A stretch of 64,000 nucleotides of DNA from Myxococcota bacterium (GCA_022072125.1 JAJVIH010000006.1:1-64000); one strand, 5' to 3'. Positions 18,590 through 33,508 are shown, counted from the first letter of the stretch. A program made the numbers and translations. Notes: generated from the letters alone by a model not told the origin.

Positions 18590-20488
18590 TCATTTCACCG
18601 GAAGTTCCCATTCGAGGCGATGACCGCCGCCGTGGCGCAGCAGCCGGACGGGAATGCGCAGGTGCAGGCGCGCTGGTTCGCACAGTGAGGAATCGCCGCT
18701 GTCACAGAGCACCAGTGAAATGCGGGCCACCAGTTCGGATTCCACCCGGTCCGCGGGCAAATCCGCCACCTGGCAGGATATCGGCAGGGTTTGCAGGGGT
18801 CCGCCTTCACAGATCAGATGAATGGACTCCTCCGCCGTTGAAAACAAATCCGGACGGCGCGAGACCTCGAGATCCACGTGCAGGGGGGATCCGGCCGCGA
18901 ATTTTTTGCCTTCCGGCGCCTGCAGCCTGAGCAGGATATCTCCCCCGCCGGGGGCCAGCCCTTCGCTTTCCCCAAGCCGCAACAATTGGCTGAACCAGGA
19001 CACGGTTCCGGCCGGGGGCGCCGCGCCGCCGGAGCGGCTGTTCCATGCGCCATTCCGGGGAACGGGCGCTCCCGTGATGACGACCTCTTCCATCAGGCCG
19101 TGGCGCACCCGCACCACCTGGTGGGCGTTGGTGTCGGCGATGATCCACGAACCGTCCGCCTCGATCTGGATGGACGCCGGTTCGTGCAGTCCGGCGAGCC
19201 GGGTTTCGCTGCGCACCACGCCTTCGCGGAGGAAACGGATTTTGCCATTGTAGGTGTCGGCCACCAGCACGCCGCCCTCGATGGCGGCCACGCCCAGGGC
19301 GTGCTGCAGGCGGGTGGTCATGGCGCCGCCGTCCGCGTCCCCGAAATCGAAGAGCCCCGTTCCCACCAGCGTGGAGACCTCGTCGCGGTCCAGGTCAATC
19401 ACCCGCACGGCGCTGGTCTCGCTGTCCGCCACATAGAGTTTGCCATTGCGATGGGACAGGCCGGATGGTTGCGCCCATGCGCTTTTCGCCACCGGACCAT
19501 CCGCCAGCGACTCCGCGCCCGTGCCGGCGTAGACTTCAATTTCTCCCGCCGCGGGCCAGAACCGCCAGATTTGGTGGCTGCCCGCCATGGCCACGTAAAT
19601 CACATCATCCACCGCACACAGGTCCCACGGCGAACGCAGCGGCGTGGATAGCGCGTGGCCCCGGCCCCGCACGATTTCGCGGCCCAGTTCACCGGTTCCC
19701 GCGACCGTGCTGACCACGCCGGCGGCCGGGTCGAATTTGCGCAGCAGGTGATTGCGCGTGTCGGCGATGAAGAGCGCGCCATTCCACCAACAGGTTCCCT
19801 GCGGATCGTCAAAACAGGCTTCGGCGGCGGGGCCGTCTTTCCATCCGCGCAATCCGCCGCCCACGGCGTGCTCCACCGTTCCATCGCGTGAACAGATCAA
19901 CACCCGGTGATGTCCGCTGTCGCTGATGACCAGTCCGCCATTGGGAGCAGCGGAGACCTTGCCGGGGTAGTTCAGGGTCCGTTCGCTGGCGGCTGGCGTG
20001 CAGGGAAGCGCGGGCGGCCCGGAGTTCAGGGTTCCCGCGGCGCGGGCGCGGGCCAGTTCCCCGCGGATGAACTCCTCCAGGATGCGCGGATCCGGTTCGC
20101 CCGGCGCCACCGCGGCGAGCGAGCCGTCGGGCCGGATGATCACCAACGTCGGCCAGGAACGCACGCCGTAACGCGACCAGATGTCCATATCGTCATCCAC
20201 CGCCACCGGGTGGGCGATTCCATGGCGCCCAATCGCCTCGCGGATGCGCGCCGGATCGCGTTCGGCGTCGAACTTGCCGCTATGCACGCCAATGACCACC
20301 ACGGGATCGCCGGCGAATTTCTCCTCCATCTCCCGCAGCACCGGCAGCACATGCATGCAGTTGATGCAGCAGTAGGTCCAGAAGTCGAGAATGACGAGGT
20401 TGCCCCGCAGTTCGCGGAGCGTGAGCGGACGGTCCACGTTCAGCCAGGCGAGGGCGGTGTTGAGTTCGGGGGCGCGTATGCGTTCCAT
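18590..20488 (-). CDS. Thioredoxin-like domain fused to an NHL beta-propeller (NHLRC2-like)
   Basis: A 632-residue protein. The N-terminal thioredoxin fold (1-150) has the redox motif C-I-N-C at Cys41-Cys44, preceded by another Cys (FWTYCCINC), and ILDFWTYC as in TlpA/NHLRC2 proteins. A six-bladed NHL propeller follows (about 170-480; NYPGKVSAAPNGGLVISDSGHHRV, LYVADSETSAVRVID), then an Ig-like C-terminal domain (about 530-632). No signal peptide is visible, so it is probably cytoplasmic. It starts 6 bases after the PPK2 stop and is probably co-transcribed with it. The redox partner and role are unknown. Confidence 0.8.
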   Translation of the reverse strand: MERIRAPELNTALAWLNVDRPLTLRELRGNLVILDFWTYCCINCMHVLPVLREMEEKFAGDPVVVIGVHSGKFDAERDPARIREAIGRHGIAHPVAVDDDMDIWSRYGVRSWPTLVIIRPDGSLAAVAPGEPDPRILEEFIRGELARARAAGTLNSGPPALPCTPAASERTLNYPGKVSAAPNGGLVISDSGHHRVLICSRDGTVEHAVGGGLRGWKDGPAAEACFDDPQGTCWWNGALFIADTRNHLLRKFDPAAGVVSTVAGTGELGREIVRGRGHALSTPLRSPWDLCAVDDVIYVAMAGSHQIWRFWPAAGEIEVYAGTGAESLADGPVAKSAWAQPSGLSHRNGKLYVADSETSAVRVIDLDRDEVSTLVGTGLFDFGDADGGAMTTRLQHALGVAAIEGGVLVADTYNGKIRFLREGVVRSETRLAGLHEPASIQIEADGSWIIADTNAHQVVRVRHGLMEEVVITGAPVPRNGAWNSRSGGAAPPAGTVSWFSQLLRLGESEGLAPGGGDILLRLQAPEGKKFAAGSPLHVDLEVSRRPDLFSTAEESIHLICEGGPLQTLPISCQVADLPADRVESELVARISLVLCDSGDSSLCEPARLHLRIPVRLLRHGGGHRLEWELPVK

Positions 20489-24851: not shown

Positions 24852-27800
24852 TTATTTCCGGGGCTTGATTCGCGCCAGAACGGCGTCGCCGATGCACTCG
24901 CCCCCGTGGAAACCTTCTTCATTGGCCATGCGGGTGTGGATGCCGCCGTAAAGCCGGGAAGTCGAGGCTTCCTTCGCCGCCTTATAGACGGATTCAAAGG
25001 TCCGGTCGCCCAGGCCAAGCGGTCTGCGGGTGCGATCCGTGAAGGGACCCGCCGGGATATACTTCGGCAGGATGCGCGTCATCGATCCCGACATCGTGGA
25101 GTGTCCCGATGTGAAGTCGGGGAAGGGAGGCGTGCGGATATAGGGTTCCCAGCGCTTGTCAATATAGCGCTCGATGTAGGTCTCCGGACGTATGGTATAA
25201 TATTTGTACTTGGTTGCCCAGGACGAAATGACGGTATCCGCCAGCGCGATGGATATCATCGCCTGTACTTCGAGCGCCTTGTCAATCATCCATTTCTGGT
25301 CGCGGACGAACTGGGCCATCAACTCCAGCCAGTGACCGGCGGGAGTTGAGGTATGGCCGGGATTGTCTGCCCAGAAGGTGGCGATGTGGCGCTGTTCGGC
25401 GTTCAGGTTCTGGTGAACATCGTACACCTCTTTCATCTGTGCGTAGTACGGTGATTTGGGATCGGTGGAGAACGGAAAGGGCAGCTTGGGCATGCACTCC
25501 TCGCCATCCTTGAGGGCGAAGGTGCGCAGCTTGCCCCAGTGCGGTTCAAGCGGGGCCTGCTTGTTCTTGTCGCGCCCCGTCGCCTCCCAGGCGGACTCAT
25601 CCCCCTTCACGCTGAAGCGGTAATTCTGGGAGCGGTACATCAGGTAGCCATCCTTGTTGGCCCACGCCACCACGGCCGCCGCGATCTTGTCGCCGTGCTC
25701 CGCCCCGCGTTCAATCACATGCTGGGGCACGCCCGCCTTGGCCTGTTCCTGGCGGATGGCGTCGCGCAGCCCTGCCATTTCGACGCGGCTGTTGTGGCAG
25801 ACGAAACTGCTCAGTCCTTCATATACCGCGGTGGCGGCGTAAATGCCCGCCGTCATGCAATCCAGGTCCTTGCCCGCTTGCGGAACCGTCAGTCCTTTCA
25901 ACTGCGGCGCCAGCGATTGCATGTCCGGGAAATCATGCACCATCGCCTCGTACATGGCGATGGAGGTATAGGCGAAGATACGCGTTGCGTTTGGCGGGAA
26001 ATGGGCGTCCTCGGCGGTGCGTTCCGCCAGCACGTCAATCCAGCGGGCGACCAGTTCGCCGGATTTGTCCATCATCATGGGTTTGGGGGCCATGGGCGCG
26101 GGCGGCCTGCGCAACACGGGGCGCACCAGCAACGGCTTGCCGTCAATGGTGATCCGCAGGCGTGCATAGTTGCGATCCGCCGCCACCGTGAATTCGCGGA
26201 AGGCGGAGCCATCGGACGCGGTCTGAACTTCGCCCGCCCATTTCACATGCGGAGATTCGACGGCCACCACGGCCTTGCGCAACTCGCCACGCTCGTCCCG
26301 GGGAAAAACCGTGATGCGGTATTTGTGGGCGGAATCCGCCTTCAACTCCGCATCCACCAGTTCCACCAATTTCGGCTCCACGTAGGTTTGCCGGGTGGGC
26401 AGCTTGATGGGGCCGGGAATCAACTGGGTATAACCCGAAGGCCAGCGGATGCGGATTTCATCCAGGCTGGAGACATCGCCGGCGGTGATTTCGGTTTCCA
26501 AGGGGTTGCTTGATCCGGTGCTGCCGCCAGTGGTGATGTCGCGGCGGTGGATGATCCCGCCCGCCTTCGCGATGATCACCGCGCCCACGCCGTCGCGGTT
26601 GCTGGTGGTTCCGGTGAGTTTGATGCGGATGAAATTCTGGTTCTTGTGCTGGATGTCATTCTTGATGACCGAAATGGGGGCCAGCAGGTTGGCGGTCATG
26701 TAATCGGTGTCGCCGTCGCCGTCGAAATCAGCGTAGGTGGTTCCGCGGCCCTGGAAGTCAATGACCTCGCGGGGCAACACGCCCTTGGCCGCGTTGGCGA
26801 ACATGTTGGTTTTGGTGTTGCGCCACAGTTCGTCCGGCTGGTGGCAGTCCGTGGGGAAAAGCCAGCCGTTGACCGAGTGGATATCCACCCGGCCGTCGCG
26901 GTCGTAATCCATCGGCTGGAGCGCCCAGGTGATGAGCACGCGGCGTCCCGGTTGCAGGTCCAGCGTGGCGTTGCATTCAACCGCATGAAAGCTGGTGGTT
27001 TTGTCAATCTGCTGTTCGGTTTCCTTGACGTCTTCATGGGTCAACGCCTCGGGCTCCACATTGAATTTGCCCTTGTCGTTGATGAAGTAGGGATTCTGCG
27101 TCCAGAACATGCCCAGGGCGAGGTCCAGATCGCCATCGTGATCATAATCGTTGGCGGCGATGGCCATGGTGCTGCTGTCAATTTCATCCAGCGAATGGCC
27201 TTCCGGAACATTGACGGACTCCTTCATCACCTCCTTGTATGCGACGCCAGGATCGTCGAAATCCTGTTTGGTCTGGCGGAAGAGATGGTCAAAATGTTTC
27301 TGCACGCCGAGTTTGCCATGCTGCCGCGTGACCGCTTCCAGCGCGGCGAAGTCGGTGCCATTCCAGATTTCCGGCACGCCGTCGTCGTCAATATCCACCG
27401 GCAGGGCCACCCATGCGGAAGCCTTTTTCGCGGGGAAGAGATCGCCCGGCGGAAGCTCTTCAAAGCGGAAGCCGCCGCGGTTCAGGAACAGGCGCGGGGT
27501 GGGCAGCCAGGATTCGTTCACCATTTCCGTCCGCAGGAACCCATTGGCGAGTTGTTCAAAGTTCCAGTCAGCGGTGTAGTTGGAAAAGAAGATGTCGAGC
27601 AGTCCGTCGCCGTCGGCGTCGAAGACCGCCGCGTGACGGGTGTTGTTGGAGTCACGGTCGAAGCTGTTGAGGTGGCTGCGGTTGGCGAATTTCATTCCGC
27701 CAAGGTTTTCGAAGATATAGTCGCGCCCCTGACCGGCGATGACCAGGTCCGGGTCGCCATCGTTGTCCATGTCCGCCGCGGTCGCGCCCGCGCCGTAGAT

Positions 27801-28184
27801 AACGGCGGCGAGCCCCGAGTCCATGGTGATCTCTTCAAACTTCCAGTCGCCATTGTTGCGATACAGCGCCGCCGGGCGATAGCCCCCAGGGGCGAACACA
27901 TCCACATCGCCATCGCCGTCAAAATCCGCCGAGGCGAGGCCCGGGCCGAACATGGTGGTGATGATCTGGGGATGACCCTCCGGGGTTTTGAATCCGATTT
28001 CCGTGGTGATGTCGCGGAAACCGCTCTGTATTTCCCCGGGTTTTCCTTCCATGCCAGGTCCGGATGGCGTCATCATATCGCCTTTGCCGGCGGCGGACTC
28101 TTCCTTGGATTTGCACCCAGCGAACGCCGCCATCACCAACGCCACGAACACCAGACCATTCAGGCCCAGATCGCCTTTTTTCAT
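24852..28184 (-). CDS. Lipoprotein fusing FG-GAP/ASPIC-UnbV repeats to a vanadium haloperoxidase-type domain
   Basis: A 1110-residue lipoprotein (lipobox AFAGC near residue 23). Residues about 45-480 are FG-GAP/VCBS propeller repeats with calcium loops (ADFDGDGDVDVFAPGG, ADMDNDGDPDLVIAG, FDADGDGLLDIFFS). About 500-600 is an ASPIC/UnbV domain (SNRDGVGAVIIAKAGG, EIRIRWPSGYTQ). About 690-1105 is a PAP2/vanadium haloperoxidase domain in which every vanadate-binding position is filled: Lys992, Arg999 (K-x6-RP), Ser1026-Gly-His1028 (SGH), Arg1077 and His1083 (SRLYGGIH). It could act as a haloperoxidase or a phosphatase outside the cytoplasm. The Met at 28184 begins the signal peptide; GGAAGGG lies upstream. 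It is monocistronic. Confidence 0.85.
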   Translation of the reverse strand: MKKGDLGLNGLVFVALVMAAFAGCKSKEESAAGKGDMMTPSGPGMEGKPGEIQSGFRDITTEIGFKTPEGHPQIITTMFGPGLASADFDGDGDVDVFAPGGYRPAALYRNNGDWKFEEITMDSGLAAVIYGAGATAADMDNDGDPDLVIAGQGRDYIFENLGGMKFANRSHLNSFDRDSNNTRHAAVFDADGDGLLDIFFSNYTADWNFEQLANGFLRTEMVNESWLPTPRLFLNRGGFRFEELPPGDLFPAKKASAWVALPVDIDDDGVPEIWNGTDFAALEAVTRQHGKLGVQKHFDHLFRQTKQDFDDPGVAYKEVMKESVNVPEGHSLDEIDSSTMAIAANDYDHDGDLDLALGMFWTQNPYFINDKGKFNVEPEALTHEDVKETEQQIDKTTSFHAVECNATLDLQPGRRVLITWALQPMDYDRDGRVDIHSVNGWLFPTDCHQPDELWRNTKTNMFANAAKGVLPREVIDFQGRGTTYADFDGDGDTDYMTANLLAPISVIKNDIQHKNQNFIRIKLTGTTSNRDGVGAVIIAKAGGIIHRRDITTGGSTGSSNPLETEITAGDVSSLDEIRIRWPSGYTQLIPGPIKLPTRQTYVEPKLVELVDAELKADSAHKYRITVFPRDERGELRKAVVAVESPHVKWAGEVQTASDGSAFREFTVAADRNYARLRITIDGKPLLVRPVLRRPPAPMAPKPMMMDKSGELVARWIDVLAERTAEDAHFPPNATRIFAYTSIAMYEAMVHDFPDMQSLAPQLKGLTVPQAGKDLDCMTAGIYAATAVYEGLSSFVCHNSRVEMAGLRDAIRQEQAKAGVPQHVIERGAEHGDKIAAAVVAWANKDGYLMYRSQNYRFSVKGDESAWEATGRDKNKQAPLEPHWGKLRTFALKDGEECMPKLPFPFSTDPKSPYYAQMKEVYDVHQNLNAEQRHIATFWADNPGHTSTPAGHWLELMAQFVRDQKWMIDKALEVQAMISIALADTVISSWATKYKYYTIRPETYIERYIDKRWEPYIRTPPFPDFTSGHSTMSGSMTRILPKYIPAGPFTDRTRRPLGLGDRTFESVYKAAKEASTSRLYGGIHTRMANEEGFHGGECIGDAVLARIKPRK

Positions 28185-28343
28185 CTTGGTCACCCTTCCC
28201 TGGAGTCTACCCTGTCGTTCCCAGATCAATTAAGCATCCCCCCAACGGCCTTGGAGAGTCAACTTCCGGTGAATCCGGGATTATTGGTATGAAAATGGGG
28301 AAAAATAAGGGTGACTGACGGCGGCGCCCGCTTGCCGGAGCCG

Positions 28344-29747
28344 TCACCACTTCAGCAGGGCGGCGGTCCGGCAGGCGGTGCGCCATGCGTCATCAATTAC
28401 ATCAGGCATGCCGATGCCACGATACGAGAAGCCGGTGAAATACAACCCCCAGTGCCGGGCGGCCTCCTCCTCCACCGCGCCCACCCGGTCCAGATGGCCC
28501 AGTTCGTATGCGGGCAACGCTTCCCGCCAGCGGTGGACGTGCGTGGCGGCGGGCTCGCCGCGGACGCCCAGCAATCCCCGCAGTTCGCCATGAGCGAGTT
28601 CGATGATTTTGTCATCGAGCAGATCCACACGGCCCGGATCATTGGCGCCGCCCAGGAAGACGCGGATGGAGACGTTCCCGCGCGGCGCCCGGCCTGCGAA
28701 CAACTCCGAACTGAACAGCGCGCCAAGAAACGGACGTTTTTCACGCGGCGGATTGAGAAAGCCAAAACCATCCAGCGGATGTTCCACCTGCTGCCGTGTG
28801 TACGCCAGGTGCGCGGTCGCCACCGGAATGAAATTGATTCCCGCCAGCTTGTCGAGGCTCCGCGGCAATAGTTCCGCCATCATTTCCGCGGCGGCGTTGG
28901 CGGGCAGGGCCATGATCACCACGTCGTATTCCAGTTCCTCTCCGGAAAGCGTGGCGAGGATGAATTTTCCCGCATCGTTTTTGCGCACCCAGGTGATGCG
29001 GGTGGAATAGCGGATGCACCCCTCCAGCGCCTCCGCAAGGCTGCGTGGCAGGGTTTCCAGGCCGCCGCGAAAGGAGATCATTCCGCGTTTGATTTTCGTG
29101 GCGGGCGGGTAGGGGATGGCGTTCACACCGCTTTCCTCTCCCTGTTTTTTCCGGGCCATCCGGCGGAGCAGGGCCAGGCGGCCTTCCGTCAGCGGCGCAA
29201 GCCGTGGAAATGACGCCGCGAACGACAGCCGTTCCGAGTCGCCCGCATGGATGCCGGAGACGAAGGGCTGGATCAGCATGTCGGTCGCTTCCGGTCCCAG
29301 CACCCGGCGGAACCAGGCGTCCACGCTGATGTCCTCCCGCGCCTTGAGCGGAGCGGCGGCGAGTCCGGCGGCCGCCCGCAACAGCCCGCGTTTGGAGAGC
29401 GCTTGCGTGCTCGCCAGTTCCGCCGGGCTGGAAGGCAACTGGCGCAAGGCGCCGTCGCGCAGAATCCAGCGGCGCTTGGCTTCCGGGCGGGCGTATTCCA
29501 CCAGATCGGGAATACCGGCCAGCGACAGCAGCACATTGAGCGATTCACGTCCGGCCAGCATGGATTCGGGACCCAACTCCCAGGCGTAGCCATCCCGCGT
29601 GAACGTGCGGATACGCCCGCCGGGGCGATTCGACTCCTCGAAGACGGTCAGGTCCACGGGACGCTGGCGCGCGCGCGACAGGTGGTCGAGAAAAACCGCG
29701 GTGGAGAGTCCCGCCAGTCCGGCGCCGATGATGGCCACGCGAGGCAT
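28344..29747 (-). CDS. hemY: Protoporphyrinogen/coproporphyrinogen oxidase, FAD-dependent
   Basis: A late haem-synthesis flavoenzyme that oxidises the porphyrinogen ring. The 467 residues begin with an FAD dinucleotide fold (VAIIGAGLAGLSTAVFL) followed by EESNRPGGRIRTF and ELGPESML, the substrate-pocket region of the HemY/PPO family, and end with GLYFTGFSYRGIGMPDVI, the C-terminal FAD motif. Whether it prefers protoporphyrinogen or coproporphyrinogen cannot be decided from motifs. With hemN and hemE upstream, protoporphyrinogen is likelier. It is the last gene of the hemA-E-N-Y operon, 8 bases after hemN. Confidence 0.9.
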   Translation of the reverse strand: MPRVAIIGAGLAGLSTAVFLDHLSRARQRPVDLTVFEESNRPGGRIRTFTRDGYAWELGPESMLAGRESLNVLLSLAGIPDLVEYARPEAKRRWILRDGALRQLPSSPAELASTQALSKRGLLRAAAGLAAAPLKAREDISVDAWFRRVLGPEATDMLIQPFVSGIHAGDSERLSFAASFPRLAPLTEGRLALLRRMARKKQGEESGVNAIPYPPATKIKRGMISFRGGLETLPRSLAEALEGCIRYSTRITWVRKNDAGKFILATLSGEELEYDVVIMALPANAAAEMMAELLPRSLDKLAGINFIPVATAHLAYTRQQVEHPLDGFGFLNPPREKRPFLGALFSSELFAGRAPRGNVSIRVFLGGANDPGRVDLLDDKIIELAHGELRGLLGVRGEPAATHVHRWREALPAYELGHLDRVGAVEEEAARHWGLYFTGFSYRGIGMPDVIDDAWRTACRTAALLKW

Positions 29748-29755
29748 TGCAACAC

Positions 29756-31135
29756 CTATATCGTGCGGGAAAACATGGGTTTGTCCGCGGGCTTGCGCGG
29801 CAGATAGGCGTCAAACACCATGCAGATATTCCGCATCACCAGTCTTCCCATGCCAGTGATACGGAGACCGTGGTCATTCACGGCGAGCAGGCCGTCGTCC
29901 ACGAACTCCCGCAGGCGCGCCAGTTCGCCGGCGAACACAGCTTGAAAATCCTCGCCAAACCGTTCGCGGTAGGCGCCGAAAGACAATTCGCCATCGCACA
30001 TCAGCCGCAGGATCACCCAGCGGCGGCGTTCGTCGTCCGGGCCGCGGCGAAACCCGCGCCCGGTGGCGAACCCTCCGGAATCCACCGCATGGTAATAATC
30101 TTTCAGTTTGTGGTGATTTTGCGCGAAACTGCCCGCGATCTCCGAGATGGAACTGACGCCCAACCCCAGCAGGTTGTCCGACCGGATGGTGGTATAGCCC
30201 ATGAAATTGCGGTGCAGGCCCTGGTTTTCCAGGGCCTGGCCGAGGTCGTCGCCGGCCCGCGCGAAATGATCCATGCCGATGGGCAGGAATCCTGCTTCCG
30301 TGAACAGATGGTAAGCCGCCATGTACAGCCGGATTTTTTCCTGGGGTCCGGGCAGCGCATCCACCGGGATTTTGTTCTGGTGCGGATTCATCCACGGCAC
30401 ATGGGCGTAGCTGTACATGGCCAGGCGTCCCGGCCCCAGGCCGATGACGGCGCGAATGGTCCCGGAAAAACTCTCCACGGTCTGATAGGGCAGCCCATAC
30501 ACCAGGTCGAGGTTGATGCTGCGGTAGCCCAGTTCTTTCGCGCGCTGCATCAGCGCTTCGGTTTCGGCGATGGATTGCACGCGGTTGATGGCTTTTTGAA
30601 CCGCCGGGGTGAAATCCTGCACGCCAAAGGAGATGCGGGAGAATCCGCGTTCCCGCAGCACTTCCAGGTGTTCGCGGCGGGTCACCGCCGGATCGGCCTC
30701 GACGGAGCTTTCGTGGCCTGGCGCGAAATGGAACGCGGATTGCAACATGTCCGTCAGGCGGGCGAGTTGCGCGGGCGTCAGAAAGGTGGGGGTGCCGCCG
30801 CCGAAATGAAGCTGGACGATCTGTTTGTTTTCCAGCCGGGGACGGTAGGCGGCGATTTCCCTTTCGACCGCATCCAGGTAGTGGTCCTTGGCGCTGTCGC
30901 GCGAAGTGACCATGGAGTTGCAGGCGCAGAAAGAGCACATTTCCCGGCAGAAAGGCACGTGAACGTACAGCGCCACGCCGTTGTGTCCGCTGGCTTGCAG
31001 CTCATCCAGGGCGCGCGACATGCCCTCCGCGCCAAAATCCATCTTCCATACCGGCGCGGTTGGATAGCTGGTGTAGCGCGGGCCGGGGCGATCGTATTTC
31101 AGCAACAACTGTTCGTTGACTTCAAACGGTTTCAT
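29756..31135 (-). CDS. hemN: Oxygen-independent coproporphyrinogen III oxidase
   Basis: A radical-SAM enzyme that decarboxylates coproporphyrinogen III without oxygen. The 459 residues match the family length. The cluster motif is C63-x3-C67-x2-C70 with a further Cys72 (PFCREMCSFCAC), the arrangement of true HemN rather than HemW. YDRPGPRYTSYPTA at the N-terminus and the GGGTPTF motif are also HemN hallmarks. Its start overlaps the end of hemE by 14 bases. An anaerobic HemN with an FAD-type HemY suggests haem synthesis across oxygen levels. Confidence 0.95.
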   Translation of the reverse strand: MKPFEVNEQLLLKYDRPGPRYTSYPTAPVWKMDFGAEGMSRALDELQASGHNGVALYVHVPFCREMCSFCACNSMVTSRDSAKDHYLDAVEREIAAYRPRLENKQIVQLHFGGGTPTFLTPAQLARLTDMLQSAFHFAPGHESSVEADPAVTRREHLEVLRERGFSRISFGVQDFTPAVQKAINRVQSIAETEALMQRAKELGYRSINLDLVYGLPYQTVESFSGTIRAVIGLGPGRLAMYSYAHVPWMNPHQNKIPVDALPGPQEKIRLYMAAYHLFTEAGFLPIGMDHFARAGDDLGQALENQGLHRNFMGYTTIRSDNLLGLGVSSISEIAGSFAQNHHKLKDYYHAVDSGGFATGRGFRRGPDDERRRWVILRLMCDGELSFGAYRERFGEDFQAVFAGELARLREFVDDGLLAVNDHGLRITGMGRLVMRNICMVFDAYLPRKPADKPMFSRTI

Positions 31136-32198
31136 GGCGCGAGCCAGCCGCTTTCCACGGGTATTCCTTCACGGCGCGGACAAATTCCGCCACGTTTTCC
31201 TCCGGGGTTCCAGGCAAGACGCCGTGTCCCAGGTTGATGATCAGCCCGTGCGGATCGCCGTCCAGGCTGTTGAAAGCCCGGGTCATTTCCTCCCGCACGC
31301 GGAAAGGCGCCGCGAACAGCATGGCCGGGTCGAAATTGCCCTGGACCGCCACGCTGGCGGGCAATGCCGCGCGGTATTCCGCCAAGCCCACCCGCCAGTC
31401 AGCCGATACCGCTTGCGGCCTGCTTTCCAGCATGGACTCCAGCAACGACCAGGTTCCCCGCGCGAACAGAATAACCGGCTTTCCGGTTTTCGCCACCGCT
31501 TCCACGATTGCATTCAGGTAGGGAAGGTTGAAGCGCCGGTAGTGCTCCACCGGGAACAGGTCGGCGTGGGAGGAAAAAATCTGCACCGCGTCGGCGCCCG
31601 CTTCGATTTGCATCAACAGATGATCGGTGATCAGCGGGGTCAGGCGGTCCAGCAGGGCGTGAACCAGATCGGGGTTGGAGTACATCATCGCCCGGGCGCG
31701 GTTAAAATGGTGGGAGGAACCGCCTTCGGCCGCATAGGCGAACAGGGTCATGGGCGAACCGGCGAATCCAAGCAGCGCTTTCTCCTCGCCCAGTTCCTTG
31801 CGGACCAGGCGCATGGCCTGGGCGACATATCCCAGGTCTTTTCCAGCATCGGGGACGCGCAAGCGGGACAGATCGCTGGAGTCTTTCACGGCCCATTCAA
31901 AACGAGGCCCGGCTTCGGTGAATTGCAGCGGCAGACCCATGGCCTCCAGCGGCATCAGGATATCGGAAAAGATGATCGCCGCGTCCATGCCGAAAGCGTG
32001 GATGGGTTGCATGGTCACTTCCAGCGCCGCCTCGGGGATTTTGCACAGGTCCATGAACGAATAACGCTGCCGCAGTTTCTGGTACGCGGCCATGTAACGG
32101 CCCGCCTGGCGCATCAGCCATACGGGAGGACGATCCACGGGTTGGGCGCGGCAGGCGTTGAGAAAGCGCCGCCGGGAATCCAGGGCGGGGGCGTTCAT
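31122..32198 (-). CDS. hemE: Uroporphyrinogen decarboxylase
   Basis: Decarboxylates the four acetate side chains of uroporphyrinogen III to give coproporphyrinogen III in the cytoplasm. The 358 residues include the substrate-binding PVWLMRQAGRYMAAYQ (signature PxWxMRQAGR), FSDILMPLEAMG and the late LGHGVLPGTPEENV. It overlaps hemA by four bases (ATGA) and hemN by 14, consistent with one translationally coupled operon. Confidence 0.97.
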   Translation of the reverse strand: MNAPALDSRRRFLNACRAQPVDRPPVWLMRQAGRYMAAYQKLRQRYSFMDLCKIPEAALEVTMQPIHAFGMDAAIIFSDILMPLEAMGLPLQFTEAGPRFEWAVKDSSDLSRLRVPDAGKDLGYVAQAMRLVRKELGEEKALLGFAGSPMTLFAYAAEGGSSHHFNRARAMMYSNPDLVHALLDRLTPLITDHLLMQIEAGADAVQIFSSHADLFPVEHYRRFNLPYLNAIVEAVAKTGKPVILFARGTWSLLESMLESRPQAVSADWRVGLAEYRAALPASVAVQGNFDPAMLFAAPFRVREEMTRAFNSLDGDPHGLIINLGHGVLPGTPEENVAEFVRAVKEYPWKAAGSRHETV

Positions 32199-33508
32199 GA
32201 CGCCTGTTTGACAGGGCTGGGCAAGGAGGCGGCGATCCGGCTGTCAAATTCGCGGATGATGTCCAGCGGATGCACGCGGTCTCCGGTGGAGGACCGCCCG
32301 CCCGACACCAGCGCGGCGCGGATGGCGATGGTTTGCTCATGTTTGAGCTTGTTGTAGGCGGAGCGCAGATCGCGGGAGAGCGTGCGGCGTGCGGCTTCAT
32401 CCCCGGGGAAGGCGGGGCTGGCGGTGATGCGCCGGTATTCGGCCTCCCAGGCCGCGTCGAAATGGGCGCGCAGGGTGGCGATCAGATCCGCCTTGGCGCG
32501 AATGTGATCGCGGCGCCGGACTTCGTCAATCGAATCGCAAACCACCGCGGAGGCGTGCTGGGCGGCCTGTTCGCGGCGCAACCGGTGGCCAGCGGCGATG
32601 CGCTCCAAGTGGAAGATGCCGCAGTATTTCACCGGGCTGACCGATCCCTTCGGCTCTCCGAAATTGCCGGGAAGACCCAGATCAACCACCATCAGCGGCA
32701 ACAGGTTGCGCCGGCGCCGGGCCAGCGTGTCGCAAGGGATGATTTCTCCGCCCGAAATGGCGCCGATCACACCGTCCGCCACGTGGGGGGAGGCCAGCCA
32801 GTCGTTGAGCGGCATGTAGACCGCGCCGGCCTGACGGGCCAACGCCTGCCCGCGTTCCGCGCCGCGGTTGACCACCATGGCGATGCGCAACCCCGCCCGG
32901 CGGGCTTCTTCCACCACGGCTTCGGCCATGCCGCCCGCGCCGATCAGGACAATGTCGCCTTTCAGGCCGTGTTCGCGGATATGCTGCGCCAGGGCGGAAA
33001 CCGCCAGGCTGGACAATCCCACCCGGCCCGCGCCGATACCTGATTCACAACGGGCGTTGCGGGCGGTGCGCAGGGAGGTCTGGAAGGCGCGGTGCAGCAC
33101 CTTGCCCGCGGTTCCGGCGGTGATGGCCGTCTTGTACGCTTCCCGCACTTGCCCCAGAATCTGCGGCTCGCCAATCGCCATGGATTCCAGACCAGAGGCG
33201 ACCCGGCAGAGCCAGTGCAGGGCGTCGAAGCCATGAAAATGCAACGCCTGGTTTTCCGGGGAACGCACGCCTTCGGGCAGCAGGAAACGCTCCACCTCGG
33301 CGCACAGCCACGAGCTTTCCCGCGGGGAGGCGGTGAAGATGATTTCCACCCGGTTGCAGGTGACCAGCACCGCCAACTCCCGGAAGGAAAACCGCTCGCT
33401 CAACCGGCTCAACCCTTCCTGCATGGAGGTCACCCGGGCATGCACGGACTCAAACACGCCCCGTTGGTGCGTTCTGAAGTTCCAGCTTAGCAGGTGAAGG
33501 GTTTCCAT
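32195..33508 (-). CDS. hemA: Glutamyl-tRNA reductase
   Basis: First committed enzyme of C5-pathway tetrapyrrole synthesis; reduces glutamyl-tRNA to glutamate-1-semialdehyde. The 437 residues carry the catalytic Cys51 in LVTCNRVEIIF, the GEPQILGQVREAY motif and the NADPH-binding VLIGAGGMAEAVV, with a helical dimerisation domain at the end. It is the first gene of hemA-E-N-Y; hemB, hemC and hemL are not in the window. It diverges from the sigma-54 activator at 33575 with only 66 bases between the starts, so their promoters must overlap. Confidence 0.96.
   Translation of the reverse strand: METLHLLSWNFRTHQRGVFESVHARVTSMQEGLSRLSERFSFRELAVLVTCNRVEIIFTASPRESSWLCAEVERFLLPEGVRSPENQALHFHGFDALHWLCRVASGLESMAIGEPQILGQVREAYKTAITAGTAGKVLHRAFQTSLRTARNARCESGIGAGRVGLSSLAVSALAQHIREHGLKGDIVLIGAGGMAEAVVEEARRAGLRIAMVVNRGAERGQALARQAGAVYMPLNDWLASPHVADGVIGAISGGEIIPCDTLARRRRNLLPLMVVDLGLPGNFGEPKGSVSPVKYCGIFHLERIAAGHRLRREQAAQHASAVVCDSIDEVRRRDHIRAKADLIATLRAHFDAAWEAEYRRITASPAFPGDEAARRTLSRDLRSAYNKLKHEQTIAIRAALVSGGRSSTGDRVHPLDIIREFDSRIAASLPSPVKQAS

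Follow-up and report, generated by a model that had tools for sequence, protein, structure and literature searches.

The question raised by this locus is whether one bacterial gene joins a calcium-loop propeller of the FG-GAP/UnbV kind to a vanadium haloperoxidase (VHPO), and what such a combination would do at the cell surface. In the window, i.e. the whole stretch of 64,000 nt of Myxococcota DNA that was analysed, the gene lies on the minus strand (24852..28184 including the stop) and forms a single open frame of 1110 codons from an ATG start without an internal stop. An earlier note, made from the sequence alone, had proposed a propeller/UnbV-haloperoxidase fusion at this position, and with one intact frame of 1110 residues and both halves matched to families this fusion turns out to be real. 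The reading we prefer, to which we assign a probability of slightly below 60%, is a lipid-anchored extracytoplasmic VHPO on a CRTAC1-type scaffold, as the one-chain form of a recurrent surface partnership.

The ATG at 28184 is preceded by a purine-rich GGGAAGG about 9 nt upstream; the protein would be longer by 15 residues if translation began at an in-frame TTG at 28229. The translated N-terminus, MKKGDLGLNGLVFVALVMAAFAG-C24-KSKEE, read by eye, consists of a putative signal peptide (residues 1-23) and a putative lipobox cysteine, C24, followed by Lys at +2 (28113..28184, minus strand), and F-A-G-C at residues 21-24 fits a permissive lipobox. At the level of this motif, the lipoprotein anchor suggested before is plausible, and the fusion protein is a predicted lipoprotein, probably of the outer membrane.

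For the N-terminal half, a FG-GAP/CRTAC1-type beta-propeller (26640..27962, minus strand) is indicated by the Pfam family FG-GAP_3, which passes its cut-off in five stretches (1.9e-31), and by seven Asp-rich loops of the Ca2+ type that begin at residues 87, 140, 191, 266, 346, 428 and 488. A UnbV/ASPIC domain follows (PF07593; residues 532-589, 26418..26591, minus strand), again above its cut-off (29.0 bits vs 23.4; 9.9e-7), so that seven FG-GAP loops are followed by UnbV/ASPIC, as in CRTAC1. The AlphaFold2 model of residues 40-610 (mean pLDDT 76, pTM 0.83) is in line with this assignment, with murine CRTAC1 (9etn) as the best PDB match at 8.6e-24 and the next match only at 4e-8. The linker (residues 600-705; 26070..26387, minus strand) is Pro-rich at its end, has no family match and is perhaps a small beta-sandwich; in the model of residues 590-1110, pLDDT is mostly <50 for residues 590-700 and mostly >90 for the VHPO part.

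The VHPO domain (residues 710-1105; 24870..26057, minus strand) matches ZgVIPO1, the vanadium iodoperoxidase of Zobellia galactanivorans (4cit/4usz), at 3.3e-59 in a phmmer search against the PDB, and since the match extends over the whole C-terminal half, the VHPO assignment is not due to chance. A Foldseek search with the predicted domain also placed 4usz/4cit on top (TM 0.89, 4e-27), followed by bacterial and fungal chloroperoxidases. Sequence match and predicted fold together support the haloperoxidase reading of the earlier note. In the tree, a long branch leads to the window VHPO, which splits off basally to the Bacteroidota/ZgVIPO1 clade and falls outside every clade member sampled.

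Alignment with 4cit and 44 relatives locates the vanadate-binding residues at 24936..25211 (minus strand). Lys992, Arg999, Ser1026, His1028, Arg1077 and His1083, all named before, are indeed present and shared with 4cit, and Gly1027, also common to 4cit, completes the set of seven ligands, which VHPOs carry in three motifs. The ZgVIPO1 numbering used here (Tyr263, Trp321, Asp322, Phe353) is presumably that of Fournier et al. in 2014 and was anchored via the vanadate ligands. Trp321 and Phe353 are kept. The features that mark the ZgVIPO1 clade, an entrance loop of the type NPY...GHxMFATKKITPGGHW and a WDEK motif, are missing from the window domain: the active-site entrance loop NPGHTSTPAGHW (residues 941-953; 25326..25364, minus strand) is 12 residues shorter than in ZgVIPO1, with the position of Tyr263 gone, and WATK replaces WDEK, with Ala990 in place of Asp322. 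Because of the deletion in the loop and the exchange of Asp322 for Ala, iodide specificity is not transferable from ZgVIPO1, and the assignment of this specificity by homology was dropped. In an algal enzyme study of 2026, the residues governing halide preference are described as largely unknown (PMC13198595). Judged from predicted fold and aligned residues, halide oxidation by the window enzyme is likely, if unproven. Since the nearest characterised relative is an iodoperoxidase, iodide chemistry is no less probable than the chloride or bromide chemistry of defence; defence or signal disruption, the roles put forward in the earlier note, are possible.

The same divergence could also mean that the domain, a VHPO homologue binding vanadate or phosphate, catalyses another reaction, such as a NapH3-like rearrangement or dephosphorylation by an apo-form, with the propeller delivering the substrate. 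NapH3 (PDB 8cxl), one of the vanadate-binding VHPO homologues known to lack haloperoxidase activity and not to halogenate, and a phosphate-trapped apo-chloroperoxidase are both among the fold matches, and the exchange of Asp322, the shortened loop and the long branch in the tree fit this explanation as well. Against it stand Trp321, Phe353 and the full set of seven ligands, and the closest fold by far is that of ZgVIPO1, an iodoperoxidase whose activity was reportedly proven by Fournier and co-workers in 2014. We therefore regard another reaction as rather unlikely, and a haloperoxidase on a CRTAC1-type scaffold as the better account of the enzyme half.

The gene context of related enzymes is the second source of evidence. 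The earlier statement that propeller and enzyme normally occur as distinct proteins is correct and, at the same time, incomplete, as in the nearest VHPO clade they are often encoded by tandem neighbour genes. Among the 80 best VHPO relatives, which were picked by similarity to the window protein, 71 loci had enough sequence, and 29 of these carry an FG-GAP/UnbV lipoprotein gene at most 1 kb upstream on the same strand, with a gap of -24 to +11 nt to the VHPO gene in eleven cases; a downstream FG-GAP/UnbV gene within 1 kb was found in none of the 60 loci of this set that were tested. Since this first set had been selected by similarity to the window protein, an evenly drawn one was added, with another 40 VHPO loci taken along the ranking obtained from 396 evenly drawn Bacteroidota genomes. 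Half of the VIPO-like VHPOs in this sample (18/36) have an FG-GAP/UnbV gene upstream within 1 kb on the same strand and 1/36 has one downstream, and in about six more evenly drawn loci such a gene lies a few kb upstream. No FG-GAP/UnbV neighbour was seen for the distant VHPOs (0/16; 0/5 for the distant ones of the evenly drawn sample). The background is low, with 3-17 UnbV genes per genome, or about one per 0.6 Mb, in 12 genomes; in two genomes (G201, G204), a comparison of coordinates showed that the UnbV genes are all arranged in tandem at the VHPO locus. Several loci show the order SusC, SusD, one or two FG-GAP/UnbV genes and VHPO, with SusC and SusD identified by Pfam. Outside the Bacteroidota, plasmid 2 of Gemmatirosa kalamazoonensis (Gemmatimonadota; L172 5270-14105) carries a gene for a stand-alone VHPO lipoprotein between two FG-GAP/UnbV genes; this plasmid is 1 Mb in size and its record is without annotation.

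In about half of the VIPO clade, the VHPO gene stands without an FG-GAP/UnbV gene next to it, which means that such a partner can be dispensed with. Nevertheless, the gene order suggests that FG-GAP/UnbV proteins and VHPOs may work together, and as both are neighbours elsewhere, the fusion in the window is a classic sign of a functional partnership. Based on the recurrent upstream FG-GAP/UnbV genes in the nearest VHPO clade, the window protein probably represents this surface partnership in a single chain and not a random pairing.

Two further contexts were noted at the Bacteroidota loci. A protein of about 307 aa with an N-terminal hydrophobic segment recurs before or after the VHPO genes (L055 6897-7817, L117 9255-10175, L122 9265-10179, L107 9302-10255), and its L055 copy has no Pfam match. 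In many Flavobacteriaceae, the VHPO gene has a constant position, flanked by queG-like and malic enzyme/ruvA/sprA genes, without an FG-GAP/UnbV neighbour (L063, L064, L066, L068, L085, L119, L130), which makes up a second conserved VHPO context.

That the halves were joined by chance, with the propeller as a generic adhesin or anchor that is functionally unconnected to the enzyme, has to be weighed at this point, and there is precedent for a VHPO joined to other surface modules. On the Rhizobium etli plasmid pRetNXC12e (L174 182-8695), a protein of >2800 aa, annotated merely as Ig-like domain-containing protein, has a VHPO-like domain mid-chain among bacterial Ig-like repeats (Big_13), and a propeller could be attached to the domain in the same way as these unrelated modules; in addition, the propeller in the window is not of the operon-partner type. 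As FG-GAP/UnbV-VHPO tandem genes recur in two other phyla far above background, we consider a chance joining improbable.

The type of the propeller is informative about the origin of the fusion. The N-terminal part scores 242 bits with the profile of Myxococcota CRTAC1 proteins, 208 bits with the short Bacteroidota type and 124 bits with the long operon type, and it aligns in one piece to the Myxococcota CRTAC1-like and the short Bacteroidota profiles. In the tree, the long operon type forms a clade of its own without the window propeller (100/100), while by the AU test (p 0.23) a sister relation of the window propeller and this Bacteroidota type is not rejected. Taken together, an origin by merger of a Bacteroidota operon is unsupported. 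Since the window propeller is of the short CRTAC1 type of its own phylum and not of the long double type, the fusion appears to have arisen independently, probably by pairing with a related module and not by a merger of the Bacteroidota operon.

No second CRTAC1-VHPO fusion was found in 195 Myxococcota genomes, 396 Bacteroidota genomes, the 80 closest loci, plasmids and viral contigs. The VHPO frames in the 396 Bacteroidota genomes are all <600 aa, and a 944-aa frame in one genome (G167), considered as a further fusion, was traced to GC-rich DNA that happens to be open upstream of an ordinary VHPO. From 84,980 genomes scanned, the best 80 VHPO relatives are all Bacteroidota proteins of 32-37% identity, none of them fused (0/80), and this list of the best 80 covers Bacteroidota only. 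Within the Myxococcota, the remaining VHPOs are only remotely similar (22-37% identity), and an FG-GAP/UnbV neighbour was absent from all 11 of their loci examined together with flanking DNA. A viral origin was rejected, as the viral contigs yielded no relatives. In the open-access literature, we found no paper that links a haloperoxidase with FG-GAP, UnbV or CRTAC1, or with SusD and Bacteroidetes, and none that links VHPO with Myxococcota; by this measure, the CRTAC1-VHPO fusion and the strong FG-GAP/UnbV-VIPO gene pairing appear to be new, with each half belonging to a known family.

The host genome is a Myxococcota genome of 3.97 Mb in 78 contigs (95.8% complete, 0.01% contamination), and the relatives compared share only the phylum with it, so that it represents a lineage without close relatives. 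Its place in this phylum is supported by MYXO-CTERM sequences, which occur in 47 of the 58 Myxococcota genomes sampled, with 17 in the host genome, and in none of the 14 control genomes. The neighbours of the fusion gene are genes for haem biosynthesis and housekeeping functions, and neither SusC/SusD nor halide genes lie beside it. Directly upstream, the same strand carries consecutive genes of the hemG, hemN, hemE and hemA type (28347-33508, minus strand), and with a gap of about 160 nt between hemG and the fusion gene co-transcription is possible; a functional link to haem was discarded, as nothing beyond adjacency speaks for it. Another combination of enzyme and propeller is encoded at 18593-20488 (minus strand), where a 632-aa protein has a thioredoxin-like domain followed by an NHL-repeat propeller.

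The earlier note had also offered an acid phosphatase as an alternative, and a secreted enzyme of the PAP2 superfamily would indeed use the identical set of ligands. The Pfam PAP2 match stays below its cut-off (19.2 bits, and 19-24 bits overall, vs 27.2), and the domain is not the compact fold of ~220 residues typical for these phosphatases: the helical bundle of the predicted structure is the bigger one of VHPOs, and the match to ZgVIPO1 runs end to end over about 395 residues, including N-terminal helices that are absent from phosphatases. In Foldseek, the best acid phosphatase reached only 1.7e-3 over ~210 columns, far below the VHPOs and in comparison to 4e-27 for the iodoperoxidase. According to the modelled structure, the domain is more likely to descend from a haloperoxidase than from a phosphatase, and we consider the phosphatase alternative very improbable. 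An artefact, be it a chimeric contig or a frame joined in error, for which one could cite the 78 contigs and the lack of a second fusion copy, is practically negligible, as the 1110 codons are uninterrupted, contamination is 0.01%, the identity to anything found is only 29-39%, and the equal GC3 of the two halves (0.780 and 0.780), in the range of the neighbouring genes (0.76-0.82), argues against an assembly chimera.

For the lipid-anchored haloperoxidase on a CRTAC1-type scaffold, the following mode of action can be envisaged. The protein would be anchored by its lipobox cysteine in a membrane, presumably the outer membrane, and the seven-bladed calcium-loop propeller together with UnbV could act as a binding or docking module for a partner, a surface or a substrate. 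According to its fold and residues, the VIPO-type domain would bind vanadate and oxidise a halide at the expense of H2O2, with iodide and bromide as the most likely substrates; the resulting hypohalous acid would be produced beside the anchored surface.

In this context, the iodine accumulation of marine flavobacteria deserves attention. Iodine uptake in Arenibacter C-21 is driven by H2O2 and needs oxygen, glucose as the H2O2 source and calcium; its genome encodes at least five ZgVIPO1 homologues, and the genes responsible for iodine uptake were not identified there (PMC5064120). In Zobellia, vIPO3 is expressed more strongly on brown algae (PMC9296495). An uptake of this kind would fit a haloperoxidase at the surface, accompanied by lipoproteins with calcium-loop propellers and, in Bacteroidota, by SusC-SusD. 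It is tempting to speculate that a dedicated surface system for halide oxidation and uptake is made up of FG-GAP/UnbV lipoproteins and VIPO-type haloperoxidases, in Bacteroidota with import by SusC-SusD, that this system underlies the H2O2- and calcium-dependent accumulation, and that the window protein is the compact one-chain enzyme unit of it in Myxococcota; as a whole, we hold this scenario to be quite doubtful. The locus of haloperoxidase, calcium-loop propeller lipoproteins and SusC-SusD import pair is in any case a testable candidate and would make bacterial iodine accumulation accessible to genetics. Environmental bacteria, moreover, frequently have UnbV/FG-GAP lipoproteins, for which the literature searched yielded no function. 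The fusion and the gene pair recurring in two other phyla lead to the hypothesis that many such lipoproteins assist a vanadium haloperoxidase at the cell surface.

Four known systems come closest to the window protein. With the CRTAC1 family (9etn and bacterial FG-GAP/UnbV proteins) it shares propeller and UnbV/ASPIC in identical order, with an identity of 15% to 9etn and up to 29% to the bacterial proteins, whereas CRTAC1-family proteins of such length lack the enzyme domain of the fusion. ZgVIPO1 aligns over the whole VHPO domain (36% identity) with all vanadate residues, Trp321 and Phe353 kept, but is a stand-alone enzyme, while the window VHPO domain is fused to a propeller. The Rhizobium etli protein is similar in that a VHPO-like domain is embedded in a large predicted surface protein; its partners are Ig-like repeats instead of FG-GAP/UnbV, and its VHPO is more distant. 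The SusC-SusD-FG-GAP/UnbV-VHPO loci of Bacteroidota, finally, contain both kinds of protein in identical DNA order, with lipoprotein-type N-termini in those read. In contrast to the window, these loci include SusC/SusD and encode the two parts as separate genes, and their FG-GAP/UnbV proteins of about 1100 aa have a second propeller region after UnbV.
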